This document shows, one piece after another, positions 2 to 21,409 of a DNA stretch of 64,000 nt. The translations under genes were made by a program, and so were the position numbers. How positions within the stretch are numbered: the stretch's first letter is position 1; each line of letters opens with the position of its first letter. Origin of the DNA: Methanococcus vannielii SB (lineage in GTDB: Archaea > AGJL01 > Methanococci > Methanococcales > Methanococcaceae). The notes under the pieces are model-generated. The model was not told the origin of the DNA. It worked only from the letters and a program-made list of their open reading frames with translations, and did no database searches. The stretch is from positions 310,001 to 374,000 of the forward strand of contig NC_009634.1 of assembly GCF_000017165.1 (NCBI RefSeq), written 5' to 3'.

Positions 2-1573
2 CCAAAACAAAAAACGTTAGAAATGTTTGGTAAGCGTTACACTGACGGGACATTCCATCCGTTCCACATTTATTCGATGAAACAGGCAATTGAAGAAGGA
101 TTTATACTTGATGTGCTCAAAAACTACATGACTTATAAAACATGTTACAAGATTGCTAAATCCACACCCGATAACCCGGAATTACCCGAAAGTGAAGCGA
201 GAAAAGCAATCGCTAGATATGAATCACTACATCCGTATAACTTGCAGCAAAAAACTGCAGTGATGGTTGAGCAGTTTCGTGAAGTTACTTCAAAGAAAAT
301 TAACGGTCAGGCCAAAGCAATGATTGTAACACCTTCAAGGCTTCACGCTGTTAGGTACTACAACGAATTTAAGAGATATATTAAGCATAAGGGCTACAAC
401 GATCTCGATGTCCTTATCGCGTTTTCTGGAACTGTAACTGATACTGATGGTACAGAATATACGGAAAGTGGAATGAATAAGACTAAAGCAGGTAACAAAA
501 TTAGCGAAAAGCAGCTCCCCGAAGTATTTCATGGTGACGAATTTAACATGTTAATCGTTGCCGAAAAGTACCAAACTGGCTTTGATGAACCTTTACTCCA
601 CACAATGTTTGTTGATAAGAAACTTAGTGGTGTAAAAGCTGTTCAGACACTTTCAAGACTTAACCGAACCGCGAAAGGTAAAAATGACACGTTTATCCTT
701 GACTTCGCAAACGAAACTATCGATATTCAAGCTGCATTTGCACCATACTACAAGGAAACAGCGCTAGATGAAGAAATCAACGTCAATTTAATTTACGATA
801 CCAAAGTGTTACTTCGAAAATTTAACGTATACGGCGATAGCGATGTTGAGAAATTTATAAAAATACACTATAAATCCGGCAAACAAACGGACACCGATCT
901 TGGTAAACTCACAAGTCTTTTCAGACCGATACAGGATTATTATCTCGAACTAAGTGACGAAGACCAGTTCAAATTCAAGAGATCCGTTAGAAACTTTGTT
1001 AAGTGGTATTCGTACATCACGCAAATCACGAGGATGTTTGATCGGGATTTACAGATGGAATACGATTTTCTATACTTCCTAAATAAATCGTTACCAAGTA
1101 ACAGTTCAGAACGAGTTGATCTTGATGATAAGATCAAGCTTGAATATTACAAGCTAGATAAAACGTTTGAGGGTAACATTGCACTCGAAACACCGGACAC
1201 GGTGATACTTGAAAACCCGAAATCAATCGATGTTGAGAAACCAAAAGAAGGTAAGGATGAACTGCTTGAAGTGATAATTCAAAGTATTAACGACCGATTC
1301 AACGGCATATTCACGGATGGCGACAAAGTCATTATCGAAACGATATATGGTCGAATTGTGAATAACGACGGCGAAAGAATTGCGAAATATGCTGAAGATT
1401 CGTTTGAGATATTTAACGACAGTTTCTTCCCAAAGGTGTTTGATGAAGTTGCGAGAAGTTGCTTTTTAGAGCAAACGAAAGCGTTCAAAAAAATATTCGA
1501 AAATAAGGAGTTTTATAACACGATACAACAGGAGATGGCTCGACAGGTGTACCGTAAGTTTAAGAATCGATAA
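2..1573 (+). CDS. hsdR: Type I restriction enzyme R subunit (HsdR), C-terminal part
   Basis: The reading frame is open from the first bases of the window (PKQKTLEMFGKR...), so the 5' end lies outside; the first ATG at 23 is internal. The protein is the second half of an HsdR motor and nuclease subunit, which translocates DNA with ATP and cuts it. Visible are the second RecA-like helicase domain with AMIVTPSRLHAVRYY, LIVAEKYQTGFDEP (motif V region) and AVQTLSRLNRT (motif VI), followed by the long helical C-terminal domain that contacts the methyltransferase. The N-terminal nuclease and the Walker A/B half are not in the window. An EVE-domain gene, often linked to restriction loci, follows after a small gene. 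CG content is higher than in the core genome, which suggests transfer. Confidence 0.92.
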   Translation, partial: PKQKTLEMFGKRYTDGTFHPFHIYSMKQAIEEGFILDVLKNYMTYKTCYKIAKSTPDNPELPESEARKAIARYESLHPYNLQQKTAVMVEQFREVTSKKINGQAKAMIVTPSRLHAVRYYNEFKRYIKHKGYNDLDVLIAFSGTVTDTDGTEYTESGMNKTKAGNKISEKQLPEVFHGDEFNMLIVAEKYQTGFDEPLLHTMFVDKKLSGVKAVQTLSRLNRTAKGKNDTFILDFANETIDIQAAFAPYYKETALDEEINVNLIYDTKVLLRKFNVYGDSDVEKFIKIHYKSGKQTDTDLGKLTSLFRPIQDYYLELSDEDQFKFKRSVRNFVKWYSYITQITRMFDRDLQMEYDFLYFLNKSLPSNSSERVDLDDKIKLEYYKLDKTFEGNIALETPDTVILENPKSIDVEKPKEGKDELLEVIIQSINDRFNGIFTDGDKVIIETIYGRIVNNDGERIAKYAEDSFEIFNDSFFPKVFDEVARSCFLEQTKAFKKIFENKEFYNTIQQEMARQVYRKFKNR

Positions 1574-1980: not shown

Positions 1981-2427
1981 TTATTTACCGTTTCGAATAG
2001 TGTTGAAGTCTTTTTCGCTTAACGGAACCATCGCACGTCTGAGTGAACCTGACCACTGTTTTTTGTTTTTTATGAATTCGAGATCACCAACTAGTGGCTT
2101 AAATAGAATTGGTGACTTGAACACTTCAATCTCTTTTAATTTAACTCTGAGCGGGTACGTTTCGTTTGGCCTATTCGGGTGTGTTCCAAATATCTTTTTT
2201 CCATCACGATTAACGTCTGAAGTGACTTCATAAAGTCCACGAATGTATTGTGGCTTTGGTTCTTTTCCAGTTATACCCATTTCGTAAATCAGTAACATAT
2301 CGCCCTTTTCAACCTTCGCGATCGTGTTTTTGTACATTTCAGAAACGCCCCAGACTTTTTTGTCCTTCACGACGTTCCAGTTTTCTTCGTTTGTGATACA
2401 CATGAAGTAATTTGTCAGAATAACCAC
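1981..2427 (-). CDS. EVE domain protein (UPF0310/DUF55 type)
   Basis: About 148 residues covering a complete single EVE domain of the PUA-like fold: TNYFMCITNEENWNVVKDKKVWGVSE at the start, a central MLLIYEMG strand, and YIRGLYEVTSD. EVE domains are thought to bind modified bases in DNA or RNA and are often found beside modification-dependent restriction systems. Here it converges on hsdR and a small gene, which fits a defence context. The start is probably the GTG at 2427, after a weak GAGGG-type site; an internal start is possible. The exact ligand cannot be told from the sequence. Confidence 0.85.
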   Translation of the reverse strand: MVILTNYFMCITNEENWNVVKDKKVWGVSEMYKNTIAKVEKGDMLLIYEMGITGKEPKPQYIRGLYEVTSDVNRDGKKIFGTHPNRPNETYPLRVKLKEIEVFKSPILFKPLVGDLEFIKNKKQWSGSLRRAMVPLSEKDFNTIRNGK

Positions 2428-2856: not shown

Positions 2857-4931
2857 TTAAAACCCAAACAATGAGTTGGAGGCATATAAATTTTTCAATG
2901 GTTCAGCATCACTTTTGATATTTAATACATACATGGCATGTGCATCTCTAAAATCTTGTTCCGTAACTTCTTTATCCAACCTAGCTTTCGCAAATGCGGT
3001 TGAAAGCCTGATCAACGTTTCAACCAACCGGGCCGACGTCTTATTTTCAACCAACCTTGGGTTTAGTCTTTTACGGTATTCAGTACTTCGAACATAATAG
3101 TCAACTATTAATTTTCAACTGATTCGGGAATTTTAACGTTCAAAGCCCTAGTATATTCGATAAAATCCATCAAAAATGAGTAGTCGAGAATATATTCGCC
3201 TACACGGGTAGTTACGGCAGTATCGCCATTGACCATTGGTGAAACGTAGTTATAATTTTTAATGATTTTTTGAGCTATTTCTTCATCTGATTCGCGGTTA
3301 TTCTCAGGATTCATGTCGAATATCAGGTCGAATCGATCAATAACCGGTTCACTTAACTCAATCTGTTCAATTAACCATTTGGATTTATCCTGTCGACCGC
3401 TTTTGGGGTTACACGCAGCAAGAATTGCAACTTCAGCAGGAAAACATAAAGTTGCACCTGCCTTTGCAATGTGTATGGTCTGCGATTCCATTGCCTCTAA
3501 AAGGTGAATTGACATGTCGTTTACGGTTACTTCATCTAAGGATACGGTTCCACCATTTTTAGCGACCAGTAAACCTGGTTTAGATACCCGGCCACTATCA
3601 CCAATCAAACTTTTTACATAGTCTATAGAAGCCGTTAATCCGACACCCGAAGTTCCAGCAAGTGAGCCATACGTGTTTTTCGGAAATTTTGAAACTCTAC
3701 GAAGGATTTCCGATTTACCTAATCCGGGATCTGAAACCAGCAGTATGTGGATATTATTACGGTTTAAACCAACAGATCCTTTGATTTGTTGAAGTAATAT
3801 CGCTTTTCGTATGATTTCGTAACCGTGGATTGTTGGAATAAGTAATTCAGAGAGCTTATCGAGTAAATCGATGTTATTATTGTTACAGTACTCCACGATA
3901 TGCTTCATATGGGCTATTTTGGTTTCATCTAAAGGGCGTTTTGAAGCATTTTCTTCTGAAACGACGTGTTTAGCGTAAATGTAAATATCGTATACTGGAG
4001 CGTTTTTCTGTTTCTTTTTGAACGGAATTCCAATAACGTTTACCTTACCGTTCCATATTTTGGAAGTGGTCTCAAAAAATACCGTAATATCGTTTGGTGG
4101 TTCTTGTGGGTTATCCGTCGATTCTACTGGTTGCTGTAACGTTAGTTCCTGTATATCTACATATTTAGAGTTATTTTCATCAAAAACCATGTATTTTCCG
4201 CAGTTACATTTTACTTTGTCAGAAACATCCTTTTCAAATACATTATCTAGTGCATATTCTTCTTTTTTACCACAAGCGCATGAATATACTGCTTTTTTCA
4301 CCATGACTTTATTTACTGACGCTGACAATACGATACCCTCAAATTCGACAATTTTACCGATCGAAGTTGAATTTAAGTTCCCAATTTTACATCGGTACTT
4401 ATTTGGTAGGTTTTTGATTGCAACATTGTAATATGCCACGTTATCTTTAGCTAATGGCGTGTAAGCTTCAGCATATGCTTCCGAAAACATTCTAAAAACG
4501 TCATTGGGGTTGCTATCAAGTTTATCTAACAGAAATGTGTCCGCACCATATTCCTTTTGAAAATCAACGATCACGGGTTTACCGTTTGTCATCTGTTTAA
4601 TGTGGTTATCTAACAGTTTTTTCGAAATGTCAGATATACTGGTTCCGGACTTACGTAAATAGCCAAATGGATCTTCGTAAATTATGTTTGTATCCATTAG
4701 TTTTCCAATGTACTTACTAACGGTACTGCGGTTCATTTTCGCACCGATTAGAAGTTGTTTTAGCCCATCAACGGTAAAATTTACATCTTGATAATTATCG
4801 AGAACGTAAATGATTGTATCACTTGCAGTTGATTTCCCACAATTATCGTTCTTTAACTTCCGAAATGTTTGAACTGACCTGATAATTTCTTCTTTCGTTG
4901 TTTCCATAAGCGCCGTAGTTTTGTCGACCAT
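2857..4931 (-). pseudogene. mcm: MCM replicative helicase, broken by a frameshift
   Basis: The 607-residue upstream part (3108-4931) has an N-terminal winged-helix-like segment, a CxC...CxC zinc site, Walker A (SDPGLGKSE), Walker B (GTVSLDEV), sensor 1 (AILAACNPKSGR) and the arginine-finger segment (VIDRFDL). It stops at 3108. The missing end, with the sensor 2 helix (SARLVETLIRLS) and TEQDFRDAH, continues in the -1 frame down to 2857 with no other damage. Adding one A to the AAAA run just before the stop (near 3113-3116) restores an ordinary MCM. Extra MCM genes on mobile elements are known in Methanococcus, and this one probably belonged to the element's replication. The break is a recent mutation, a homopolymer sequencing error, or less likely a programmed shift. 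Confidence 0.88.
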
Positions 4932-5463
4932 TAAATGCCCCGTTCATCAGTTTTTAGTATATTTGTCGTGTTTATTTCCGAAAATATCACTGAATCGCGT
5001 ACTATATAAATATCACACAAGCTTTCCATCGTGAAAACTTTTCTGAATAATTATAATGTGTACCCCCACGGTGTGCAATATTGGTCAGATATCGGAGTAG
5101 TTATTACCTGTTTTTTTGCAAAAAATCCACAATATACTGTTACCCAATAGTAGTAACATGATGGTAACGCCTGAAAAGGGGGAGTAACGAAAATATTATG
5201 ATATACGGAGTTTACCTGTAATTCTAAAAAACACCTGTTTAATGAGGTTATCGTGATGTACACTAAGATTCCATGTCATGTGATACTAACGGTATCTCCA
5301 TTAACCTGTGTGGAATGTGTGTGTAATTGAAAATATGATAATGTGGAGAGCTAAGATAATATGGAATCCGTAAAAGCCATATGCCCTGTAACGCAGGTAG
5401 CTAAACTACATAATAGCCAATTTATGATATCTTGTGGTTTAACTCGTTTTTCCAATACTTACC

Positions 5464-5567
5464 AATAGTGATCTAAACTGTAGACGAAAATGTTTGTGAA
5501 ACCGGTTAGATTCAAAAGTGAATGCTAGCGTTCACGTGGTGAAGTATAATGTGTGAAAGAGCCTCGG
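5464..5567 (+). repeat. Dispersed element repeat, copy B
   Basis: Starts AATAGTGATCTAAACTGTAG like copy C, and keeps ACGAAAATGTT, GATTCAAAAGTGAA and AAGTATAATGTG. The middle palindrome is replaced by GTGAA-N8-TTCAC. Confidence 0.75.
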
Positions 5568-5680
5568 TAGTGAACGATATCCACAATCAAATCCGTGTGA
5601 AATTAGATTCATACCTTGGTCGATGTATCACCAGCGGATTAATCAATATGGGTTGCAACGATGAGTTTACAATACTCCAA

Positions 5681-5790
5681 AATAGTGATCTAAACTGTAG
5701 ACGAAAATGTTCACGAAACCCCCTGGATTCAAAAGTGAACAAATCCGTTTCGTAGCTACGAGTATAGCATACAATGGAGCTCAAGCGTGA
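5681..5790 (+). repeat. Dispersed element repeat, copy C
   Basis: The most regular copy. It has AATAGTGATCTAAACTGTAG, then TGTTCAC and GTGAACA as a 7-bp inverted pair about 20 bases apart, then the perfect palindrome CGTAGCTACG and GGAGCTC. Confidence 0.78.
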
Positions 5791-6164: not shown

Positions 6165-6566
6165 ATGAAAATAACAACTAAATTAACTATGCCATCAATC
6201 GTAGCAACTTCGCTGTCCCATAAAGGATTATGTGGAATGAAATACTCAGAAATTCGAAAACAGGTAAATTCTAACTACCGTTCGGTTGGTGCCAAATATT
6301 TCGAAGAATTGAATGCACACAATTTAACGACTATGTATTGGTTAGCGGGTGCGCTATACGATGCTGAAGATTACAACTTTAAAGGTGACCGATATCACAT
6401 AAATGTTATCGGGAATAATTTTGTAAGGCGAACATGTATGGACATCGCATCGGTAGAATTAAATCTAAAGCGAAATATTGAGCCGAAATACGAAAAGATG
6501 TTGAAAAACATTGTAGAATCATCAGACAAGTTTGATTTTATAACGCAGCAATTGTATCTACCATAA
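6165..6566 (+). CDS. Hypothetical protein of the accessory region
   Basis: A 133-residue protein starting MKITTKLTMPSIVATSLSHK, no family recognised. A GGTGA ribosome binding site at 6154-6158 supports the ATG at 6165. It is mixed helical and soluble, with basic and aromatic residues, and no signal peptide or membrane segment. It stands alone among noncoding repeats of the element (copies C and D on either side), so it may be an element-specific replication or maintenance protein, but nothing in the sequence proves this. Confidence 0.65.
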   Translation: MKITTKLTMPSIVATSLSHKGLCGMKYSEIRKQVNSNYRSVGAKYFEELNAHNLTTMYWLAGALYDAEDYNFKGDRYHINVIGNNFVRRTCMDIASVELNLKRNIEPKYEKMLKNIVESSDKFDFITQQLYLP

Positions 6567-6674
6567 TAACTCAGTATCGATGCTTACTTTTTTCATGTTT
6601 AGTTTTAGCGGGTTTGTCTGAACAGACTGACGGTACTATAACGTTCCTGTCCAGGGTTACAACATTTGGTATTG

Positions 6675-6785
6675 ATGATCTAAACTGTAGGCAAAAATGT
6701 TCACGAACCACGTTAGATCAAAAATCATTCGAATCCGTTTCGTAGCTGCATGTATATTTTGTAATACTCTTCAGGATGAGTCGTA
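6675..6785 (+). repeat. Dispersed element repeat, copy D
   Basis: Keeps TGATCTAAACTGTAG, AAAAATGTTCACGAACC, TTAGATCAAAA, ATCCGTTTCGTAGCTGC, but has lost the palindrome's right arm. Confidence 0.7.
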
Positions 6786-6960: not shown

Positions 6961-7412
6961 GAAATAAATGCACCACTGTACGATGACTTAACGCATTTAG
7001 ACAATAGATATCAAAACAATGTTTCACTATTCTTCGAGTAGGATTTAGCGAATCAACTAAAATGTTAACTGAAACGATAGTTACGATTTTTCCATAGTCC
7101 CGGTGTTTTTCCACATACGGCTCACTTCTATCGGTATATCTGTAAAAAAACAATCTGTAACTCATGAATGTTTAATTAGCTGTATGGTAATGCCGATCTA
7201 ACAACATAACTATCACATGAGGTATTAATGCATGTTTAACGTGCCAACTCAAATTTATCAAAAAAGTAATTCGTCCATAGTGTTCAGCCAACTGTGTCGG
7301 CTGTGTGCTAAACACGGTAGGGGCTTATCCCCTTCGAATAAAATGATATTTAAAGGACGAGTATTTACATTTCGTCGTCAACTTCGTTTCCGACTCATTC
7401 ACTCGTCATTGG

Positions 7413-7423
7413 GCGCTGCGCGC
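7413..7423. terminator. GC-rich hairpin next to RNA copy 1
   Basis: GCGC-TGC-GCGC followed by AT-rich sequence on the plus strand. The same position beside copy 2 holds GGCGC-TCC-GCGCC (9679-9691). It lies just beyond the 3' end of the proposed minus-strand RNA and could be a stop signal or boundary element. Confidence 0.4.
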
Positions 7424-7443
7424 TATAATTATTATATATATTG

Positions 7444-7910
7444 AAAAAAATATAGTCTAATCTTATGTGCTTTTCACATAAAACTAGTAGCTTACGTCTG
7501 GTTAGCGTAACGGTACAGTGATAACCAGTGTTTTACTCATGTGTACGATATCACTTGATTCCCGGCTTAATCACACAACATTTCACTACTAGTGGTGTGA
7601 CTTACAAATCGACAGTTCGAAATGACCGTAACCTCAAGCACGTCTACCGCGTTACACGTATGCGTTTATAATTCCTGATTGAACCGTTTAAACTCGTGGG
7701 TCCGCTTTTCTTCACGATAACTATCTGGTTATCTCTAAGATTACACTGATGTTTCGTGAGGGTAACTGAGGTATGTTCAGGCAACTATAACTCGCACCAT
7801 TGTACAACAAGGCACAATGTGAGTGGTTTCCGTTTGATAAGGCGTTATAATGTACCACATTCTCGTGTCTCGCACGTCCATCTGTGTTTTTGTGTACATT
7901 ATTGTATAGT
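7444..7910 (-). ncRNA. Large structured noncoding RNA, copy 1 (new family candidate)
   Basis: About 465 nt, homologous to 9733-10238. In the proposed minus-strand RNA the order of helices is: P1 (7894-7902 with 7847-7855, nine pairs), P2 hairpin inside it (7873-7876 with 7864-7867, constant loop CGAGA), a central domain with conserved blocks at AGCGGACCC and GGTTACGGTCA, P3 (7595-7600 with 7571-7576), P4 (7522-7528 with 7498-7504) and P5 (7475-7481 with 7463-7469). All five pair in both copies although their bases differ. A further GATAAC/GTTATC hairpin is specific to this copy. The minus strand is chosen because pairs that are A-C mismatches on plus become G-U on minus. A TATA box lies at 7930-7939, and a T7 run at 7450-7444 follows P5. 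No known RNA family was recognised; it is not rRNA, RNase P, SRP RNA or tRNA. Confidence 0.75.
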
Positions 7911-7929
7911 ATATAAAGGTATGCCCCTA

Positions 7930-7939
7930 GTATATATAC
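7930..7939 (-). promoter_or_regulatory. TATA box of structured RNA copy 1
   Basis: GTATATATAC centred about 32 bases before the outer pair of helix P1, so transcription would start near 7910. The same element stands at the same distance before copy 2. Confidence 0.6.
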
Positions 7940-8094
7940 CTTATCAATCACCGTCGATGATGCTGGTCAAAGTCCCAAGCGTATATCATTCTAATACACG
8001 TGAACAAGATTAACACCCAATAGAGCATGTATAACATGTGTGTACATACTAACATACATGTGTATTCAAGCATAGACATAAATGTGCACCTACG

Positions 8095-8298
8095 TTACCA
8101 TTTCGTTGATTGATGCAAATACATGAACGCAGCGATGTATGTTCCTATACCAAGCCCCATAACGCTTAAATTTGGCACGCAGAGTAGTAAACCAGCTACC
8201 ATCGTCCAAATTACATACCATGTGTATTGTTTAGGGACCGTTCTGTCTTTTGAGTAATTTACACATGTTTTACATTTACAACAACCGTCATCGGCCAT
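8095..8298 (-). CDS. Small membrane protein with cysteine motif
   Basis: A 67-residue protein. The N-terminus has CCxCxxC (CCKCKTC, residues 6-12), which could hold a metal. It is followed by two hydrophobic segments (about residues 27-44 and 47-60, rich in Trp, Leu and Gly) and a short tail. A GAGGGAAGAG ribosome binding site precedes the ATG. It is the only convincing gene between the two structured RNA copies and is read in the same direction as they are. The function is unknown; an element-encoded membrane anchor or immunity-type protein is a guess. Confidence 0.7.
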   Translation of the reverse strand: MADDGCCKCKTCVNYSKDRTVPKQYTWYVIWTMVAGLLLCVPNLSVMGLGIGTYIAAFMYLHQSTKW

Positions 8299-9560
8299 AT
8301 CTCTTCCCTCGTAATTTTAAATTAGTAGCAATGACAATACTCTAAACGACTATTTAATCCCCTCACATATAACTTTTATTCAGCATGTCGGGTAATTTAC
8401 TACGCTATTATTACAGTATGGTTGTTAAACTGGCGAAAAATTCGTTAAAACGGAAATTGAGTAAGTTTAAACTTCACGATGGGGTAAATCATTAGATGTA
8501 ACCGATTTGCTTTTAAATGGGTTCAACACAACTGTAACATTACGCTATTCAGTCGGCATACACCATAAAATGTTAAATTAACACTCAATGATCCATAATC
8601 ACCAATCAATGTTAGTTTTTCAGTTATTGTGGCAGCTGAGGTGTTACTTTCAGTTATTCAACAAAATTTATCAGTTAATATTCTTAGTTAACGATTATTG
8701 TTCGCTATAGCTCATAAATCGCTTTTATCAATGTTTTGTAATCAACTTATCCAACTCGTATCGCTACAATCGAGTACAATGATAGGTTACTACTGCAGTA
8801 ACAATTAAGCCTTCGGCTATTCGCTGTTAATTACAGTAAAATGTTATTAATTAGTCACCGTTTACTTAAAACCGTAAATTTCATCGATATATTCATTACC
8901 GGTGTGGCAATTACGGATATTGTGATCATTTCAACAATGTTAATGTAACAAGTGGTTTGTTTAACAATTTACATTGGCATTTCGCTATTAACGTTTATAG
9001 ATTAACGCTCACAAATCGCTCTTATGGTATTTTAAGTTACAGGTCAGTTAAGTCAAACCGATTAAACCCACATAATCCGTTAAACGTACAACTTAACTTA
9101 TCGTCATTTTTACATGATAGTTTACCTACTACGGTTTATTAACGCTTATTGTTCGCTGTTACTCACAATTCGCGTTTAACCGGCGATATATCTTCGATAA
9201 AACACATAACTTTCGTAATTCCTAACTTAGTATTAACTTGTAGATACAATGTTCATTACACCACTTACCGTTTAACTAACAGTACAATACGGAATGTTTA
9301 TTGGTAAATATATTCGATAATTGACAGTTAAGCTAAACAATGACGTGATAACCGAAGTAATCGTTACTTAAATGGTATTTACTAAGTAATGTCAACATCG
9401 TAGTTTATCGATTAATCTGATAACTAAATACCTGTTCTTACATATCATCCACTAGCGATACTTCAGTAGACCCCGTAGTTATCACAACTTGTCATTCAAC
9501 AGTTAAGCCTTCGGCTATTTGTTGTTAATCACAGCAAAAACGTTTTTGTAACCATATCAC
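8299..9560. repeat. Noncoding AT-rich segment with degenerate repeats
   Basis: No gene supported. Two repeat types are visible. Type one, TTAACG-TTATTGTTCGCT followed by CTCA(C/T)AA-TCGC, occurs at 8688-8722 and 9138-9173, with a partial copy at 8990-9022. Type two is a 42-base repeat at 8800-8841 and 9498-9539 (37 of 42 identical) with a central AGCC-TTC-GGCT hairpin. The segment fills the space between the two structured RNAs. Confidence 0.6.
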
Positions 9561-9618
9561 CATGAGTTAGTCTTACTACGCATTCGCTTTCGCTTTATGC
9601 TTCATAATCTAACTCATG
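9561..9618. repeat. Long hairpin beside RNA copy 2
   Basis: CATGAGTTAG (9561-9570) pairs perfectly with CTAACTCATG (9609-9618), and an inner GCAT/ATGC pair flanks a CG-rich loop. A block resembling the TCGCTGTT...ACTCACAA repeat follows at 9635-9664. Confidence 0.6.
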
Positions 9619-9732
9619 TACTCGTTGCTTCGCCGCTCGCTGTTCGTGGGACTCACAAGCTCGCTACACTCGTATTGGGGCGCTCCGCGCCTATAATAAT
9701 ATATATAATACTATAAAATAATAATTAAACAT

Positions 9733-10238
9733 TTATAGTCTAATCTTATACGTTAAATCGTATAAAATGACTTGCTTACTTCCAGTTAGTGTTTCGGTAA
9801 AGCGATAACTGGTATTTTGCCCATATGTACGATATCACCCAATTCCCGGCGTTACTAACACAACATTTCACTTACTAGTGTGTTAGTTTACAGAATGAAT
9901 CTGACCAAACTGACCGTAACCTTGAGTTCGTCTACCGTTTTCACTTATGATTGCATATCTATGGTTTTAACCGTTAGTCTCGCCGGGTCCGCTTCTAGTC
10001 ATACTACTTGATATTACTAGTACTTGAGGGGTGTTAAGGTAACCTAACACTTTCCTCAAAATGTTAGTAATGGTGTAGTCATGAGGGTGTCAGAGGGAAG
10101 GTTCCAGTAGACTATACAATCACCACCGTACTTGGTACGGTGTGAGCGACTCTTTTTTCCGTTTAATTATGTGCGTAAACCACCACATTCTCATGTCTCG
10201 CATGTCCTTCTGTTTTACGGTGATTTACTGTTGCAGGT
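9733..10238 (-). ncRNA. Large structured noncoding RNA, copy 2 (new family candidate)
   Basis: About 505 nt, second copy of the RNA at 7444-7910 in the same orientation. Helices: P1 10219-10228 with 10175-10184 (ten pairs on the minus strand, one of them U-G), P2 10201-10204 with 10192-10195, P3 9879-9887 with 9854-9862, P4 9806-9812 with 9782-9788, P5 9759-9765 with 9746-9752. Loops and junction blocks are kept almost letter for letter, while P4 and P5 each carry two paired substitutions relative to copy 1. This copy has an extra arm: 10000-10007/10075-10083, 10013-10019/10065-10071, 10024-10029/10054-10059 and 10031-10036/10045-10050, stacked as one long hairpin of about 27 pairs, plus a CACCGTAC/GTACGGTG hairpin near 10123-10142. 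Conserved structure with changing sequence implies selection on an RNA. Confidence 0.75.
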
Positions 10239-10256
10239 GATACGAAATCTTAGATA

Positions 10257-10266
10257 GTATATATAC
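10257..10266 (-). promoter_or_regulatory. TATA box of structured RNA copy 2
   Basis: GTATATATAC, about 33 bases before the outer pair of P1. The flank GATAAAG-TATATATACTA matches copy 1 (GATAAGG-TATATATACTA) on the minus strand. Confidence 0.6.
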
Positions 10267-10561
10267 TTTATCCTCAACTGTCACAGGTTAAGCGACGTGG
10301 TGTTCCTAAAGTCATATTTTGTAAATTTAAACAGTTTAAGTAACGAAAAAAGCAGTCTGTAGGGGTTACTGTAACGATAAACCGCATAGTCAAAACCAAC
10401 AGATTTGAACATCAGGGGTTACTGTGTTTCATAGTACAATCGGGTTTAACATTTCTATAGTTTGACATGACATATAATGTCTTCACGTTGAACCGCATTC
10501 TAGTTGGTAGCAACTCAGAATGAACTGATAAATCGTTAATCGTATTAACTACCAGTTTGTG

Positions 10562-10829: not shown

Positions 10830-11508
10830 GTGTATACCTATATTGAATGTTTAAATTTGACAATAGGTAATTGTTAAGCCATATATCGGCAAGATATCCG
10901 GTATGATTAGAATTTCGAAAATAACACTTCAAACTACGATAGTTCAAGGCATTGCTTTACGATTGTATAAAACTTATTTCAATAACTGTTATAGCATCCC
11001 GTATGAACTATTAACTGGTTGTAGTTACATCACATAATTAAAATTCGATTAATAAACACGATAGATTCTTTTCACCCGCAACGGGTAATTTTACGTAATA
11101 GTAATGTTGGATTTAGCATTTAACACATTTAATAATTATTTTGTAAGTGTAATGGCTACACTAACTTCAACGCATAATTTCACAGATGTACTAAAATTAG
11201 TCATACCAATGCCAATTCTCCAATTATCGGATATATCGGTAAAACAGATACACTACATCGTTTGTTTAATTTTGTAAAATAAAATTAGTCGCAATGATTT
11301 CGATATCATGCCAATGTAAAAAAGAGTCATACTCTTTTTGCACCAAAACTTCACAAGTCACAAATAAAAAATTACATTTGTGAGTGTCGCACACATCCAT
11401 CTAATATGACCCATATGGTTCATTTGAATATCAAACACACCTACCAGTTGATTATTACGCTACATTACTTAGTCATAGGTGATATGCCATTAAACGCTAC
11501 GCCGTCGA
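10830..11508. other. Noncoding, one terminator-like hairpin
   Basis: No gene seen. A perfect hairpin AAAAAGAGT-CAT-ACTCTTTTT lies at 11319-11339 and works as a terminator shape on both strands; CACAAAT...ATTTGTG follows near 11360-11383. Confidence 0.5.
11319..11339. terminator. Symmetric hairpin with T-run
   Basis: Nine-base perfect arms around CAT, ending in T5 on either strand. It lies about 170 bases beyond the stop of the minus-strand gene at 11509-11805. Confidence 0.45.
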
Positions 11509-11805
11509 TTACTCCTTTGTTTTAAACTTCACAGGTTTACCAGTTCTTTCAAAGTATCGTAACATCATAGTTTCTGAAACAATGTCCCAGTCGATGAATT
11601 CAATAAGGTAATTCAGTAAAGCCGGTTTAAATGATGTAATTTCAGACATTGGATTAGATCGAAGTTCCGACTTTAACAGAACAATTAGTTCGGTGTATGA
11701 TGTACAGCATTCGATTTTTTCGGTCCAATTACCGGTATAATAAGCGTAATTATTTAATGCCGATACAACTACGTCGGTTAGCTCTTTGGGGGTTATTATG
11801 TTCAT
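11509..11805 (-). CDS. Hypothetical protein of the accessory region
   Basis: A 98-residue soluble, mostly helical protein (MNIITPKELTDVVVSALNNYAYY...). An AGAGTGAT ribosome binding site precedes the ATG. No family is recognised. The C-terminus is basic (GKPVKFKTKE). It is transcribed away from the promoter-like sequence near 11820 and stands alone in the gene-poor region, so a role in element maintenance is possible but unproven. Confidence 0.65.
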   Translation of the reverse strand: MNIITPKELTDVVVSALNNYAYYTGNWTEKIECCTSYTELIVLLKSELRSNPMSEITSFKPALLNYLIEFIDWDIVSETMMLRYFERTGKPVKFKTKE

Positions 11806-12811: not shown

Positions 12812-12857
12812 GTGTAGGGTCGTGTAACTGTGGTGTAAATTAGTGTAGGGGGGTGTA
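12812..12857 (+). repeat. Array of five GTGTA boxes spaced by about 10 bp
   Basis: GTGTA occurs at 12812, 12822, 12833, 12843 and 12853. Steps of 10, 11, 10 and 10 bases put all boxes on the same face of the helix, as expected for cooperative protein binding. The array ends in an AGGGG...CCCCT hairpin (12847-12862) and a GCGG-TTTTT-CCGC hairpin follows at 12875-12887. A TATA-like ATTATATAATC lies just upstream. Confidence 0.6.
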
Positions 12858-13097
12858 CCCCTGCAAAAAATGTCGCGGTTTTTCCGCACTTAATTACCCT
12901 ATAGTGTAATATGGTACGTTTTCAGGAAAATTTCAAGTTTTTCGAAAACTTTGGCTTTTTTGAATGTAAATTAATGCATGTCAAAATATGAACAAAACAA
13001 AATTACTAAATAATGATAGCGCCATTATTCAATTATTCAAAATAAACTGATTTTTCGGAGTTATATGATCACGGGGGTATGCATGTCGGCCCTAATG

Positions 13098-13141
13098 TTT
13101 ATATATCAAAACAACTGTATAATTAATTGACTAATCAGTCA
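13098..13141 (+). promoter_or_regulatory. Promoter and operator of the island TetR gene
   Basis: TATA box TTTATATA at 13098-13105 with the inverted repeat TGACT-AATC-AGTCA (13128-13141) centred on the expected transcription start. The repeat belongs to the TTGACT-N4-AGTCAA family also seen at 14095 and 18169. Confidence 0.65.
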
Positions 13142-13156
13142 GTGGATGAGATACAT

Positions 13157-13735
13157 ATGAAAGCAAATATTGAAGACAAAAGAAAAGCCGTTATGGATGC
13201 CGCATTGAAACTATTCACCGAACGTGGATTTCACGGTACATCTACAGCCCAGATTTCAAAAGAAGCAGGAGTAGCTACGGGTACGCTCTTTCATTACTTT
13301 CCAACGAAAGAAGACCTAATAAACAACCTGTATTTTGAAGTAAAAGGAGATTTAAGTCGAACAATGGTAAAAGACCTCGAATTACAAAATACTTTCAAAG
13401 ATAAGTTGAAGAAAATATGGGATAATTTAGTTAGATGGGGCTTAGATAACCATAACGAATTCCTATTTGTCGGCCAATTTTGCAATTCCCCATACATATC
13501 GAATTTTACACGTGAAGAAGTGATGAAAGAGTACGTATTCTTACACAAACTCGTTGATGACGGAATAAAAAATGGGGACGTTAAAGAATTACCCTCAGAA
13601 CTGATAATCGCAATGTTTTACCAAAACAGCAGGACCTTGGTAGATGTAATTTCTGGTTGTGGCCCATCCTGCAACGAAAATAAATTTATTGATGATGGAT
13701 TTGAGATAGTCTGGAACGGACTAACCAAAAACTAA
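13157..13735 (+). CDS. TetR family transcriptional regulator of the metabolic island
   Basis: About 192 residues. The N-terminal helix-turn-helix (RKAVMDAALKLFTERGFHGTSTAQISKEAGVATGTLFHYFPTKEDLI, split in this text only by family landmarks) is textbook TetR; the rest is the ligand-binding helical domain ending in an unusual CGPSC segment. The ATG at 13157 is preferred over the upstream TTG at 13127, because the latter would place the operator inside the gene. Operator-like sites at its own promoter and before the hydrolase and second reductase genes suggest that it represses the island until a small ligand binds. Confidence 0.88.
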   Translation: MKANIEDKRKAVMDAALKLFTERGFHGTSTAQISKEAGVATGTLFHYFPTKEDLINNLYFEVKGDLSRTMVKDLELQNTFKDKLKKIWDNLVRWGLDNHNEFLFVGQFCNSPYISNFTREEVMKEYVFLHKLVDDGIKNGDVKELPSELIIAMFYQNSRTLVDVISGCGPSCNENKFIDDGFEIVWNGLTKN

Positions 13736-13754
13736 TTTTTTTAGTTAAACTATG

Positions 13755-13768
13755 ATTGATTAGTCAAT
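13755..13768. promoter_or_regulatory. Variant operator-like palindrome
   Basis: ATTGA-TTAG-TCAAT, just after the TetR gene and before the small membrane gene. The half-sites resemble the island operator, but the spacing is four bases shorter. Confidence 0.4.
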
Positions 13769-13820
13769 TAAAAATATAGTAATTATTTATCACAAAAAAA
13801 TCCTTAGTAAAGGTGAGAGT

Positions 13821-13988
13821 ATGTATTGTCCATATACGTGTAACCCATATCTTAGTGGCCTTGTAATGGTCATATTATTCATTTTATTCAGCTTTATATT
13901 TTCAGCAATATTCTGGAAAACCAAGAAATGGATGGAGTGTATTGAAGCTAAATGTATGAAAAAAAAGTGTAAAACTGAAGAAAAGTAA
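13821..13988 (+). CDS. Small Cys-rich membrane protein
   Basis: A 55-residue protein starting MYCPYTCNPYLSGL. Cysteines CPYTC lie before a single strong transmembrane segment (about residues 12-32), and three more Cys in a Lys-rich tail (WMECIEAKCMKKKCK) follow it. AAAGGTGAGA just upstream is a good ribosome binding site. It lies between the TetR gene and the hydrolase gene. Paired cysteines on both sides of a membrane span suggest metal or redox function, but no family is recognised. Confidence 0.6.
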   Translation: MYCPYTCNPYLSGLVMVILFILFSFIFSAIFWKTKKWMECIEAKCMKKKCKTEEK

Positions 13989-14094
13989 TCAGTTCTTTTC
14001 TTTTTTAGTTATTTTGAAAATATGCCTGAACAGCAAATTTTTCCCCTTTTTTCAAGATGCCTAAATTATATATGCCATAAAAACAGAGTATTAT

Positions 14095-14110
14095 TTGACT
14101 GAGTAGTCAA
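14095..14110. promoter_or_regulatory. TetR operator before the hydrolase operon
   Basis: TTGACT-GAGT-AGTCAA, perfect arms, about 25 bases after a TTATATATG TATA box at 14066-14074, so it covers the transcription start. Confidence 0.7.
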
Positions 14111-14165
14111 TCTTAAACCAATCTTGTAATTTACTCAATAATTCAGAAAAATCGAGTGTGAAAAT

Positions 14166-15128
14166 ATGGAATCAAACAAAACTTTCAAATTAAGCGAAAA
14201 AGTGACGGTAGAAAAAGTTTCATATAAAAACAAATACGGAATCACCGTTGCAGCAGATATGTACCTGTCAAAAGACATAGACAAATCCCAAAAATATCCT
14301 GCAATCGTTATCGGAACACCTTATGGTGGTGTAAAAGAGCAGGGTGCAGGTATTTACGCACAAAATTTGGCAGAAAGAGGGTTTGTAACAATTGCATTTG
14401 ATGAATCATATAATGGAGAAAGCAGTGGGGAGCCTAGGCATATATCTTCACCCGATTTATTTGTGGAAGATTTTAGCGCAGGAGTGGACTTTTTAGGAAC
14501 AAGGCCGTTTGTAGATAGAAACAAAATCGGTGCTATTGGCATTTGCGGAAGTGGGGCATTTTCAATTACTGCAGCCCAGGTAGACCCCAGAATTAAGGCC
14601 GTAGCTACTGCAAGTATGTACGACATGAGTAGAATGATCCGAAACGGATGGGAAGATTCAATGACTGATGAACAGCGTGCTCAAACCTTAGTTCAGCTTG
14701 GTGAGCAACGATGGAAAGATTTTGAGAACAGTACTCCTGAATTACCTGCTGGTTTTCCTAACGAACCTGCTGACGTTATTCCCGAAGGATTGGATCCAAT
14801 TACAAGTGAATTCTTTGAATACTATGGAATGAAACGTGGACATCATCCTAATGCAGGAGCCGCATTTACTATAACTAGCAGCATGTCTTTCATGAATTTC
14901 CCTTTGATGAAGTATATAAAAACGATTTCACCAAGACCAATTTTATTTATTATCGGTGAAAATGCTCATTCCAGATATTTCAGTGAAGATGCTTACAAAA
15001 TGGCTACAGAACCAAAAGAACTATATATTGTACCGGGTGCAAGACATATCGACTTGTACGATGGTGGGGACAATGACTGTATTCCATTTGACAAATTGGA
15101 AGGATTTTTCAAAGAACATTTGGAATAA
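14166..15128 (+). CDS. Alpha/beta hydrolase (YcjY/dienelactone hydrolase type)
   Basis: A 320-residue soluble esterase-like protein. The nucleophile elbow is GICGSGA (about residue 124), with Cys at the usual nucleophile position as in dienelactone hydrolases. The N-terminal sheet (ITVAADMYLSKD, YPAIVIGTPYGG), a late Asp/Glu region (ILFIIGENAHSRYF) and the catalytic His in PGARHIDLYD complete the fold. It leads the TetR-controlled operon. The substrate is unknown; the neighbouring reductases and cupin suggest breakdown or detoxification of an organic carbonyl or lactone. Confidence 0.85.
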   Translation: MESNKTFKLSEKVTVEKVSYKNKYGITVAADMYLSKDIDKSQKYPAIVIGTPYGGVKEQGAGIYAQNLAERGFVTIAFDESYNGESSGEPRHISSPDLFVEDFSAGVDFLGTRPFVDRNKIGAIGICGSGAFSITAAQVDPRIKAVATASMYDMSRMIRNGWEDSMTDEQRAQTLVQLGEQRWKDFENSTPELPAGFPNEPADVIPEGLDPITSEFFEYYGMKRGHHPNAGAAFTITSSMSFMNFPLMKYIKTISPRPILFIIGENAHSRYFSEDAYKMATEPKELYIVPGARHIDLYDGGDNDCIPFDKLEGFFKEHLE

Positions 15129-15181
15129 ACCCAAACTGGTCGAATAATAAATCAAAGCTAACATTGAAATGAGGAGAACTT

Positions 15182-16294
15182 ATGGAATACCGAAAATTAC
15201 CTCACGGTGGTGAAAAGGTCAGCACTATCGGCATTGGATCAGGGAGCTTGAAAGATGCCACACCACAAGAGATCAAAGATATCGTCAGTTATGGTATGGA
15301 CCAGGGCGTAAACCTGATCGATACCGTTATGTATGACACAAATGCGGTAGATCCAATTGCTGAAACATTGAATGGGTATCGTGACGAGATGATGATGCAA
15401 CTACACCTTGGCGTGTGGTATCCAAAAGGAACATATTCAAGGACAAGAGTTCTCCGCAATGTTAAAAAGGGTTTTGAGCAGGAATTGAAGAACTACAATA
15501 CAGACTATGCCGATATTGGCCTCATCAGCTATGTTGATCAGGTTAAAGACTTTGAAAACATCATGTCAAATGGCATTTTTGATTATGCTAAAAAGCTAAA
15601 ACAAGATGGAACCATTCGACATCTTGGTATTTCATCCCATTCTGAAGAGATATGTAAACTCTTTATCGAAACTGGTGAAATCGATGTCATAATGTTCAGC
15701 ATTAATGCAGCTTATGATTTTAGTCCGTCCAGAGGCATGCTCTCTTTATCTAACGAACGTATGGAACTCTATCGAGAATGTGAAAAACAAGGGATCGGAA
15801 TCACAGTTATGAAAGCGTATGGTGGTGGACAGCTATTAAATGAAAAAACATCACCTTTCAAACGTGTTATGACAATTCCTCAATGCATACAGTATACATT
15901 GGATCGTCCAGGCGTTATTTCATGTCTTCCGGGGGTACGGTCAAGAGCAGATTTGGATTATGCACTTAAATTTTACTCGGCTTCTGAAAAAGAACGAGAT
16001 TATTCATTTATTGGCAATCTACCACATAAGGAAATGACCGGTACTTGTATATACTGTAACCACTGTCAACCGTGTCCATCCAAAATCGATATTGGTTCAG
16101 TAAATAAGTATTTAGACCTTTCAAGAGTGGGTGATGACCTTGCAAAAGACCACTACATGAAGTTAAGTAAAAATGCAAATGACTGCACCAATTGTGGCAC
16201 CTGCGAAAAGAACTGTCCGTTTAATGTGGATATACGTGGCAGAATGATTGAAGCAAAAAAGTATTTTGGTTCAATAAATAATGCAAAAAAATGA
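15182..16294 (+). CDS. Aldo/keto reductase with C-terminal 4Fe-4S domain
   Basis: A 370-residue protein. Residues 1-280 are a TIM-barrel aldo/keto reductase (GVNLIDTVMYD holds the Asp and Tyr of the active site). It ends in two ferredoxin-like clusters, CIYCNHCQPCPSKID and CTNCGTCEKNCPF. Such Fe-S aldo/keto reductases (COG1453 type) probably take electrons from ferredoxin rather than only NADPH. A GAGGAG ribosome binding site lies before the ATG. Part of the hydrolase-to-flavoprotein gene string; a second, more complete homologue is at 18209. Confidence 0.88.
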   Translation: MEYRKLPHGGEKVSTIGIGSGSLKDATPQEIKDIVSYGMDQGVNLIDTVMYDTNAVDPIAETLNGYRDEMMMQLHLGVWYPKGTYSRTRVLRNVKKGFEQELKNYNTDYADIGLISYVDQVKDFENIMSNGIFDYAKKLKQDGTIRHLGISSHSEEICKLFIETGEIDVIMFSINAAYDFSPSRGMLSLSNERMELYRECEKQGIGITVMKAYGGGQLLNEKTSPFKRVMTIPQCIQYTLDRPGVISCLPGVRSRADLDYALKFYSASEKERDYSFIGNLPHKEMTGTCIYCNHCQPCPSKIDIGSVNKYLDLSRVGDDLAKDHYMKLSKNANDCTNCGTCEKNCPFNVDIRGRMIEAKKYFGSINNAKK

Positions 16295-16318
16295 AATCCG
16301 AATATTCTAGGTGACAAA

Positions 16319-16744
16319 ATGAACGATTCAACAGATTTAAGCAATAGCGTAATTTTCCCAAAAGGAGAAGAACTTCCAGAATTTTTGAGCAAGTATTTTT
16401 CGGGTAAAGTATGGGTCAGTATGTTAGTTGGAAGAGATAACGAATTCAATTGCCCGATTGGAAATGTGACATTTGAACCAGGCTGTATAAATAACTGGCA
16501 TAAACATCCCGGAGGACAGATTTTACTGGTTACCGGTGGTCGTGGTTACTATCAAGAAGAAGGAAAACCTGCTCAGGAACTTAAAGCTGGAGATGTAGTT
16601 GAAATTCCTTCAAACGTAAAACACTGGCACGGGGCAGCTCATGACAGCTGGTTTGTACATCTTTCCGTTGAGACAAATTCAAAAGCAGGTCCTGCAGAAT
16701 GGTTAGAACCCGTATCTGACGAAGAATACTGCGATCTGAAATAG
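16319..16744 (+). CDS. Cupin domain protein
   Basis: A 141-residue single-domain cupin. Metal-binding motif 1 is NNWHKHPGGQ...E (about residues 58-66) and motif 2 is PSNVKHWHGA. This type is often found beside carboxymuconolactone decarboxylase-like and reductase genes in bacterial stress operons. It lies 24 bases after the Fe-S reductase and is probably co-transcribed. Its substrate is unknown. Confidence 0.88.
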   Translation: MNDSTDLSNSVIFPKGEELPEFLSKYFSGKVWVSMLVGRDNEFNCPIGNVTFEPGCINNWHKHPGGQILLVTGGRGYYQEEGKPAQELKAGDVVEIPSNVKHWHGAAHDSWFVHLSVETNSKAGPAEWLEPVSDEEYCDLK

Positions 16745-16765
16745 GATATTTAAAACGTGATACTT

Positions 16766-17512
16766 ATGAACTCGCTTATATTTAACCCGTTTTCAGGAGC
16801 TGCTGGTGACATGATTTTGGGATGCACCATGGACCTTGGGGCCGATAGAAATTACGTAAAAGAGATTATCGAGTCAGCAGTACCTGTATCTGTAAGCATT
16901 CGTGATGTCGTGAAACGAGGTATTCGGGCTTTGGATGTCAAGATCAATGTTCCCGAACACGAACACTCACGAACATATTTTGAACTTATCGATATTATAA
17001 AAGATGCTAAGCTACCTAAAGACATAGAACTGAGTGCACTTGATATTTTTTCAAAAATGGCTGAAGCTGAAGCACATGTTCATGGTAAAGACGATCTTGA
17101 AAAAGTACATTTTCACGAAGTTGGGCAAAATGATGCACTTGCAGATGTTATCGGTTCATCAGCAGCTATTTATGCACTCAAATGCGATTCGGTTTATTGT
17201 ATGCCGATAAACGTCGGAAGCGGAACTGTAAGATGTGCACATGGTAATTTACCAGTACCTGCACCGGCTACGTTTGAAATACTGAAAACTGGAAAACTCT
17301 ACTTTAAAGGCGGAACTGATGAAAAAGAACTTCTAACACCAACTGGTGCTGCCATACTTTCTCATTTCACAAAACCAATAGAAATGTTTCCATCCTGTGT
17401 TGTATGTTCTATTGGTTATGGTGCAGGAGATATCGAGCTCGATGGTCCAAACGTGCTTCAAGGCATAATAATTGAACAAAATATACCACTTCATAATCAT
17501 GTACATGAGTAA
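16766..17512 (+). CDS. larC: LarC1-like protein (nickel-pincer cofactor nickel insertion), no LarC2 domain
   Basis: LarC inserts nickel into the pincer nucleotide cofactor made by LarB and LarE. This 248-residue protein matches the N-terminal LarC1 part: NPFSGAAGDMILG, HEHSRTYFELID, HVHGKDDLEKVHFHEVGQNDALADVIG, and CSIGYGAGDIELDGPNVLQ near the end. It stops where LarC1 normally joins LarC2, with a short His tail (HNHVHE). Full archaeal LarC is about 400 residues. Only 40 bases separate it from the next gene, so no LarC2 exists here in any frame. It may cooperate with a complete chromosomal LarC. The ATG at 16766 follows GTGAT; an upstream GTG at 16757 is less likely. Confidence 0.82.
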   Translation: MNSLIFNPFSGAAGDMILGCTMDLGADRNYVKEIIESAVPVSVSIRDVVKRGIRALDVKINVPEHEHSRTYFELIDIIKDAKLPKDIELSALDIFSKMAEAEAHVHGKDDLEKVHFHEVGQNDALADVIGSSAAIYALKCDSVYCMPINVGSGTVRCAHGNLPVPAPATFEILKTGKLYFKGGTDEKELLTPTGAAILSHFTKPIEMFPSCVVCSIGYGAGDIELDGPNVLQGIIIEQNIPLHNHVHE

Positions 17513-17552
17513 ACGGGATAATTTTACAATATGACTAATGAGGATGATTCAA

Positions 17553-18089: not shown

Positions 18090-18168
18090 TTCAATAAGTG
18101 TTTATCTACATATAAAACGTTATTTTTACAAAAATTATCCGAAAAACAAGAATAAACAGAAATTAGCA

Positions 18169-18184
18169 TTGATTGAACGGTCAA
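18169..18184. promoter_or_regulatory. TetR operator before the second reductase unit
   Basis: TTGATT-GAAC-GGTCAA, same length and spacing as the site at 14095. It overlaps the leader of the next gene, so the last two genes of the island probably have their own regulated promoter. Confidence 0.6.
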
Positions 18185-18208
18185 TCAGATAAACTCAGGT
18201 GGGTAAAC

Positions 18209-19402: not shown

Positions 19403-19412
19403 GTGATCCCAA

Positions 19413-20198: not shown

Positions 20199-20595
20199 GA
20201 TAACCCTGGTAGCTACAACGTCACAAAAACGGCAATGTCCAAGGCAGCAGGTCTACCGACAGAACTTATAATGGTATATGTTTACACGGTGTAGAATTCT
20301 ATAATTATCCCTAATTTTGTCATACTGGTGCGTTATTGAAATCGATAGATCAGGGGCCGTAACAGTAAATTCGATAAGATATATCCTGCGCGTTTTTGCA
20401 AAATAAGGAATGTAAATGTCCCGCGTTATAAGTTACGAAAAAAGAAATAATGTATACATAATAGTCGGTTAAATAACAAACATATAATCCATGAGCGTCC
20501 GAATGAACAATCAATGAATGATAATTTGTAACCGAAATGTAAAACCGCTAAAATCGCTTAGTTTGTGTTAAATCAATGTCAAAAAAGTCCGTCGA
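20199..20595. other. Noncoding end of the island
   Basis: No gene. It contains the first copy of a 25-bp direct repeat (20212-20236). Confidence 0.5.
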
Positions 20596-20763
20596 GATTT
20601 CAAGTCCGGCGCCTTTGGCCAAGCTCAACCACCTCTGCTCGCACATCTACTTAAGCGATTCGGGTATATATACTTTTCTATTTTTCATAGCGTTGCGGTA
20701 ACGTATGACCTGCCATATCGGCGCAGTTAACCATGATGGCTACAACGTCACAAAAACGGCAAT
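20212..20763 (+). repeat. Perfect 25-bp direct repeats
   Basis: The sequence at 20212-20236 is repeated exactly at 20739-20763, bracketing 502 bases that include the tRNA-Ser 5' fragment. Both begin GCTACAACG and end ACGGCAAT. Read as protein both give YNVTKTA, so they could be remnants of one duplicated coding segment, or recombination sites. Confidence 0.65.
20596..20638 (-). tRNA. tRNA-Ser(UGA) 5' fragment
   Basis: Minus-strand GCAGAGG acceptor strand, D arm (TTGAGCTTGGCCAAAGGC), anticodon stem and loop CTTGAAA with anticodon TGA, then the match breaks off after AAATC. A GTATATATAC TATA box lies about 30 bases upstream (20664-20673) and a T6 run follows at 20586-20581. It lacks the variable and T arms, so it cannot make a tRNA alone. 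Confidence 0.75.
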
Positions 20764-20805
20764 TGACATGCTTAACTGTGATTATCGTTAATTAACTGTT
20801 GATAT

Positions 20806-20860
20806 GACTTAAAACCCGATTCTCCACTGAAAACCGGCGGTTCAAATCCCTCCCTCTGCG
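20806..20860 (+). tRNA. tRNA-Ser 3' fragment
   Basis: Plus-strand decayed anticodon region (GACTTAAAACCCG), variable arm (CGATT...AACCG), T arm (GGCGG-TTCAAAT-CCCTC, one C-C mismatch) and acceptor strand CCTCTGC with discriminator G. CCTCTGC pairs perfectly with the GCAGAGG of the fragment at 20638, which lies 170 bases away on the other strand. Integration of elements into tRNA genes leaves such 3' fragments, so this is a likely attachment site. Confidence 0.7.
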
Positions 20861-21409
20861 CTTTTACGGCGGCGTTATTGTTTACATTATGGCAAATTTC
20901 GATAGTATCACCTCACGATATACTGCGAATTATCAATCGACGTAAATCATCGTAAAAACCGATCAAACCAATTATACGTTATATCTCGGCTATCGTCTGA
21001 TCTTGCTAAAACTTATTTTGGTATTATGTATTTTGGAAAATTTATGTCCGGTTGTCGCAGTAATAAAAGACTATCTACAAAATTTTAAAGAATTTAAATT
21101 TAGTTTTATCCTCAGAATTTTACATCTCAATTTTAAAAGAAAAACCATATCAAAAGCGACATATGTTATGAAAAATACCATTTTCTGGTAGTTTGAATTA
21201 TTTAATTAATTTAAATATAATATTATAATAAAATAAATTTTTCATATTATTATATTAAAAAAATTCTTATAATATATATTGATGTACTTTATTTAATATA
21301 TGGTTCAACATATAATGAATTATTTCTTTTAGTTTAAAATGTAAAGCTATCAACTACTATACAATACATATTTAATGTTATTGCATATTTATTTAAATCA
21401 CGTGAAAAC
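20861..21409. other. Noncoding boundary of the accessory region
   Basis: CG-rich style ends near 21,000; after that the sequence is the AT-rich, CG-poor core genome. No supported gene. Confidence 0.55.

Follow-up and report, generated by a model that had tools for sequence, protein, structure and literature searches.

Structured transcripts of about 500 nt, located in noncoding replicon regions and followed by an AT-rich tract, are found at the origins of ColE1 (RNA II, ~555 nt) and of T4 (R-loop). Members of another group, ROOL and GOLLD, are large ornate RNAs of bacteria and phages that form homo-oligomeric cages; the solved ROOL has 659 nt and many GOLLD RNAs are longer than 800 nt (PMC12286853). 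OLE, which belongs to Gram-positive bacteria and works with the Oap proteins (PMC9723947), is likewise large, conserved and structured. With regard to possible carriers in Archaea, the Methanococcales members of the pT26-2 plasmid family typically encode an MCM helicase and integrate into tRNA-Ser genes (PMC6972569).

This analysis is centred on a 64-kb window (the whole stretch of DNA analysed, G000:C1:310001-374000 of a closed 1.72-Mb methanogen chromosome), in which two noncoding regions very probably encode two paralogues of a new RNA family. The new RNA is similar to ROOL and GOLLD in being a large folded noncoding RNA with pseudoknots, carried by phage- or prophage-like elements. ROOL and GOLLD often lie near tRNA genes (PMC12286853); related to this, the copy on a virus-like contig is ~4 kb from tRNA genes, and the plasmid copies belong to tRNA-Ser-integrated elements, far from the tRNA-Ser itself. 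GOLLD also combines a conserved 3' part with a variable 5' part (PMC12286853), as the new RNA does. On the other hand, the latter is shorter (~425-510 nt), has archaeal carriers and has no match in Rfam, to OLE or otherwise. Thus, the comparison with ROOL and GOLLD made in an earlier note on this DNA holds for size and kind of carrier and fails for homology. The likeness to ColE1 RNA II and the T4 R-loop lies in the length of ~500 nt, the structured RNA, the noncoding replicon region and the adjoining AT-rich tract, whereas the new RNA has no known antisense partner or mapped origin and is present in two copies per plasmid.

The copies and their homologues

Copies A and B (Table 1) recognise each other in reciprocal blastn searches (E ~2e-29). 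The custom models R1 and R2, built from the same copies that they match and with rough E-values, give 219 and 96 bits for copy A and 225 and 78 bits for copy B. The predicted ends of copy A are near 7908 (5') and at the U-tract near 7444 (3'). The two regions had been described as aligning end to end; 7444-7910 and 9727-10238 do align, but their middle part (~150-230 nt, ~7690-7830 and ~9985-10155) differs in length, the variable hairpin of copy B being longer, and can hardly be aligned between A and B. This middle part still folds significantly in the five-copy alignment. The conserved DNA extends beyond the RNA on both sides (~7390-7948 and ~9591-10275).

Five copies were found in total, distributed over three elements: A and B in the window, C and D in G002, a genome of the same genus with a sister element, and E in the virus-like contig (G061). 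C and D are 71-81% identical to A or B over the best matched stretches. Copy E was detected with a DNA pattern made to fit A, B, C and D, which gave no match in genome contigs and copy E in IMG/VR; two other conserved blocks used as patterns found E again and nothing else. The earliest patterns, run on genome and viral contigs, had been too closely tied to A and B. The search with R1 across 36 Methanococcales genomes returned the four known copies only; among its weaker matches (<=19 bits), the two best overlap plausible coding genes and were rejected. No further copy was found by blastn against plasmids and phages or with R1 on the Methanocaldococcus MCM plasmids. Besides, in Rfam 15 there was no gathering-level match anywhere in the 64-kb window, including both RNA regions, in agreement with the earlier note, which had seen no match to described families. 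At E<=10, the RNA-bearing loci gave only tRNAs and chance matches in L033, none of them at the RNA. The sample consists of five sequences, which come from a single genus or from a virus presumed to infect it.

The copies can be assigned by their sequences to two paralogue types, I (A, C and E) and II (B and D). A, C and E have sequence variants in common as against B and D, and the nearest relative by 3' domain identity is D for B (81%) and E for both A (81%) and C (80%), A and C being 75% identical to each other. The occurrence of both types in both plasmid lineages suggests that the duplication is older than the split of these lineages.

Several observations were made between copies A and B. 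The repeat TTAAGCCTTCGGCTATT is present at 8800-8841 and 9498-9539, there is a weak R1 match of 11 bits at 8830-8940 (-), and a putative 67-aa Cys-rich membrane protein (MADDGCCKCKTC...) is encoded at 8095-8298 (-), with no Pfam or PHROGs match.

Table 1. Features of the predicted RNA copies, of their surroundings and of the carrier elements (positions in the window unless a locus is named).
Feature	Position	Strand	Remarks
RNA copy A (type I)	7444..7910	-	~465 nt; homologous to the other four copies
RNA copy B (type II paralogue)	9727..10238	-	~510 nt
Copy C	L018:11556-12038		G002, congeneric species, sister element
Copy D	L018:13130-13573		G002, congeneric species, sister element
Copy E	L033 ~281-703		IMG/VR contig IMGVR_UViG_2860317346_000001 (G061), 175 kb
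Conserved 3' domain, copy A	7449..7652	-	alignment A3; eight helices including pseudoknot
Conserved 3' domain, copy B	9732..9940	-	
Conserved 5' hairpin domain, copy A	7826..7912	-	loop CGAGA/CGGGA; alignment A4
Conserved 5' hairpin domain, copy B	10155..10239	-	
Pseudoknot strand 1, copy A	7583..7588	-	UAGUGA; pairs with 7516-7521 UCACUG
Pseudoknot strand 2, copy A	7516..7521	-	in loop of hairpin 7498-7528
Pseudoknot strand 1, copy B	9868..9873	-	AAGUGA
Pseudoknot strand 2, copy B	9800..9805	-	UCGCUU
Promoter-like GATAAGGTATATATAC (BRE/TATA), copy A	7930..7945	-	
Promoter-like GATAAAGTATATATAC, copy B	10257..10272	-	
U7 tract, copy A	7444..7450	-	directly after last hairpin; terminator-like
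AT-rich tract and GC hairpin GCGCGCAGCGCCC, downstream of copy A	7411..7443	-	93% AT
AT-rich tract and GC hairpin, downstream of copy B	9678..9733	-	
Protein X (133 aa)	6165..6566	+	50% in G002, 47% in virus contig
Protein Y (98 aa)	11509..11805	-	predicted helical; also G002, G003, virus contig
Iteron array	12812..12857	+	five GTGTA at 10-11 bp spacing
Noncoding block (CAAAAAATGTCGCGGTTTTT)	12856..12952	.	also G002 and virus; 76% over 100 nt to L039:1239-1336
MCM helicase, host element	3108..4931	-	PF00493, 4.6e-54
Right attachment repeat	20595..21020	+	426-bp direct repeat, 99.5%
Left attachment repeat	L021:5509-5934		first part inside tRNA-Ser(TGA) gene

Strand, fold and ends of the RNA

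The strand was analysed with RNAalifold on the five-copy alignment against 300 column shuffles, which kept the gap pattern and the conservation class and were refolded each time. The z values for the minus and the plus strand were -7.7 versus -3.7 in the 3' domain, -8.3 versus -4.1 in the middle and -4.4 versus -3.9 in the 5' domain. An RNA read from the plus strand, being weaker in every block, was rejected. The minus-strand fold of the 3' domain contains 33 G-U cells versus a single A-C cell; this scarcity points to the minus strand, since a G-U pair of a plus-strand RNA would appear as an A-C cell. The contrast is weaker over the whole alignment, with 37 and 35 double-change pairs in each strand's own fold and 7 versus 16 A-C cells. 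Thus, the structure sits on the strand opposite to that on which the earlier note had written it.

The five helices named in that note were all found at their positions, with paired changes, and its proposal of a large structured RNA with covariation gained weight, given that more homologues appeared and the covariation grew stronger with them. Changes on both sides were observed in 23 of the 74 named pairs (14 of 57 in the 3' domain and 9 of 17 in the 5' domain). A null with independent real substitution patterns gave 3.1 +/- 1.7 and 1.5 +/- 1.2 such pairs, respectively, and the observed 14 and 9 were reached in none of the 2000 runs each. In the 3' domain structure (A3, 57 pairs with the pseudoknot) 95.1% of the cells are paired and 14 pairs have double changes (0 of 500 shuffles). 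Most of this support, and of that for the 5' hairpin (A4), is lost when the partner is slid by 1-3 columns. The fixed structures behind these pair counts and this null were chosen on the same data, and the refolded shuffles, the only control that corrects for it, are the fairer one. The folding energies of the single sequences are unremarkable (z from -0.5 to -3.0).

A systematic stem search revealed a loop-loop pseudoknot that joins the loops of two hairpins. It is paired in all five copies with different sequences (UAGUGA/UCACUG in A, AAGUGA/UCGCUU in B and AAGUGU/ACACUU in C, D and E), two of its pairs showing double changes. A second candidate pseudoknot, between CGGUA and UACCG in a hairpin loop, competes with helix 1, and the two are inseparable on five sequences. 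The earlier reading had overlooked the strand and much the larger part of the fold, including the loop-loop pseudoknot. Its statement that no coding frame explains the conservation was right: in every copy, each of the six frames of the 3' domain is interrupted by stops, and a coding region was rejected.

A promoter-like sequence of the GATAA(A/G)GTATATATAC type precedes four of the five copies (A, B, C and E) on the minus strand with similar spacing (GGTAAGGTATATATAC in copy E), whereas the version of copy D, AATAACATATATATG, is weaker and its spacing shorter. In the four copies the motif precedes the first conserved helix by ~28 nt, which corresponds to the archaeal BRE/TATA geometry. At the other end, the last hairpin of type I (A, C and E) is followed by seven or eight U, which are not present in type II (B and D). 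U-tract terminators are known from Methanococcus maripaludis, and the type I RNA ends in the same way (PMC8716108). Judging from these motifs, the RNA would have its own promoter and, in type I, its own terminator.

Carrier elements and the set shared with a virus-like contig

The window copies belong to an MCM-encoding element of 27 kb, integrated in tRNA-Ser and with a tyrosine integrase at its left end. In G002 the element is likewise found at a tRNA-Ser site, with a 91-bp repeat, and also encodes MCM. The two related elements are 25-27 kb long. MCM, tyrosine integrase and tRNA-Ser integration are shared between the window element and the pT26-2 family (PMC6972569); the likeness rests on MCM, integrase and attachment site, and pMEFER01 and pFS01 have no match to the RNA model. 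A third element (G003) has MCM and Y, while RNA and iterons are absent from it.

The two integrated RNA-bearing elements have restriction-modification systems at the same place, named by eye, which are different: type I in the window element (L021 9279-13574) and type III-like in the sister element (L018 35-4070). The cargo at 13127-20198 includes a TetR regulator, an alpha/beta hydrolase, aldo-keto reductases with iron-sulphur tails, a LarC-like protein and a flavodoxin-like reductase, all of them except TetR named by eye from the translation. An EVE-domain protein (1981-2427, minus strand) shows 84% DNA identity in the G002 and G003 elements, well above the rest of the element. Moreover, a noncoding repeat of 100 nt with a GATCTAAACTGTAGRCRAAAATGTT core is found three times (5450-5549, 5667-5766 and 6657-6756), with a relative at L018 4940-5011.

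The contig that carries copy E (loci L033, L039, L040 and L052-L059) has genes for a family B DNA polymerase (PolB), a terminase, an archaeal histone, an anaerobic ribonucleotide reductase, a protein with an RNA polymerase Rpb1 domain and tRNAs, and is read from this content as a large head-tailed archaeal virus. The Rpb1-domain-2-like protein is at L039:4886-6535 and the histone at L033:1408-2037. Copy E itself occupies an intergenic gap and is codirectional with the neighbouring genes. No MCM match was found in this contig, so MCM is not common to plasmids and virus contig.

Protein-by-protein and base-by-base comparison of the contig with the plasmids recognised nothing in common other than the RNA, proteins X and Y and short noncoding blocks, including iterons. 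When plasmids and virus are compared, the RNA (~75-81% identity, 3' domain) has changed less than X and Y (35-47%), the value for Y being 35-40%. Neither protein has a recognisable domain; the helical structure predicted for Y has no PDB match, and that of X is too poor for use. In the virus contig the gene of X begins to overlap with PolB at the end of the latter, and this position suggests replication. There is one iteron array per RNA-bearing element (the others at L018 16540-16585 and L039 9088-9132), and among the 36 Methanococcales genomes the iterons occur only in the two with the RNA. The whole set lies within 6.1-13 kb of the window; in the virus contig the genes are scattered. Another noncoding block, L018:13826-14059/L052:9288-9508, shows 72% identity between the G002 element and the virus contig and a conserved GGTCCGATTGCTCGGACC hairpin, with a short part at 11319-11385 of the window; it may represent either a further RNA or a site acting in cis.

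Role proposed for the RNA and rival explanations

The minus-strand regions read from 7910 to 7444 and from 10238 to 9727 are, with high probability, two paralogues of a new stand-alone, pseudoknotted noncoding RNA family of mobile elements, ~425-510 nt long and preceded by promoter-like sequences of its own. This reading is adopted because of the five copies on three elements, the minus-strand z values, the excess of G-U cells, the double changes, the pseudoknot, the promoter-like sequences and U-tracts and the lack of an open reading frame. Its role is predicted more tentatively, and at somewhat below even chances, as that of a trans-acting component in a module for replication or maintenance. 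The RNA would act in trans as a compact folded scaffold for proteins encoded by the element, the virus and the host, or for other copies of itself. This scaffold would be part of a module exchanged between virus and integrated elements, which might enable the latter to coexist with viruses like G061, to exploit them or to resist them. As relatives of the RNA occur in both, an RNA-based module appears to be common to virus and element; X, Y and iterons co-occur with the RNA across otherwise unrelated elements. RNA family and trans role taken together seem about as likely to be right as wrong. The explanation is weakened by the sample of five sequences, the unremarkable single-sequence folding energies, the missing U-tract of type II, the lack of a recognisable domain in X and Y and the scattered virus genes.

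Chief among the rivals is a transcript-primed origin, given the conserved AT-rich DNA beyond the RNA 3' end. Each of the five copies is followed there by 29-45 nt of AT-rich DNA (85-93% AT), a GC (GCGC) hairpin and CGAG-rich repeats; folding of this flank did not tell the strands apart. The RNA would then be a folded pre-primer, similar to ColE1 RNA II or the T4 R-loop, whose 3' end stays on the template, and the tract, hairpin and repeats would form the origin. The length is similar to that of RNA II, iterons are nearby, and the carriers encode either MCM (plasmids) or PolB (virus), X adjoining the latter. However, the terminator-like U7-8 of type I precedes the AT-rich region, each plasmid has two copies, and the iterons are separated from the RNA by 2.6 kb in the window and by 5.5 kb in G061. 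In G061 the turning point of the GC skew also lies away from the RNA, but there the skew follows gene direction and is no marker of an origin. Considering both sides, a primer function seems unlikely, though worth keeping in mind.

An RNA-based conflict device is less probable still. The virus-like RNA, X and Y of the elements would sense, sponge or jam a helper or competitor virus, as a satellite or by superinfection exclusion. This would agree with a virus contig and elements that have nothing in common except X, Y, the RNA, the iterons and some noncoding blocks, and with the restriction-modification systems that the elements also carry; nevertheless, the sharing may be a simple exchange of a replication module. 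A cis-regulatory leader or riboswitch of the downstream gene is very improbable: in G061 a 146-aa gene does start ~200 nt downstream on the same strand, but the downstream genes differ for every copy, copy A faces a convergent gene and, in type I, transcription would stop at the U-tract, ahead of any gene. Finally, a DNA-level element, whose hairpins or palindromes would serve replication, recombination or packaging as double- or single-stranded DNA without any RNA, could account for a large, noncoding, repeat-rich replicon region and for covariation, which ssDNA hairpins would also show, but the strong strand asymmetry, the 33 G-U versus 1 A-C cells, the sequences resembling a promoter and a terminator at the expected ends, the long-range pairs and the pseudoknot make it the least credible of these readings.

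It is also conceivable, if rather doubtful, that virus and integrated elements form an archaeal helper-satellite system around this complex RNA, the two small proteins and the iterons that they share, in which the element would use or block the replication machinery of the virus. The function of the large structured phage RNAs, such as ROOL and GOLLD, is an open puzzle, and the copies described here would add a comparable but unrelated family from Archaea. The genus is genetically tractable (M. maripaludis), and concrete candidate partners are available, as the RNA is accompanied by X, Y and an iteron array in virus and elements alike.
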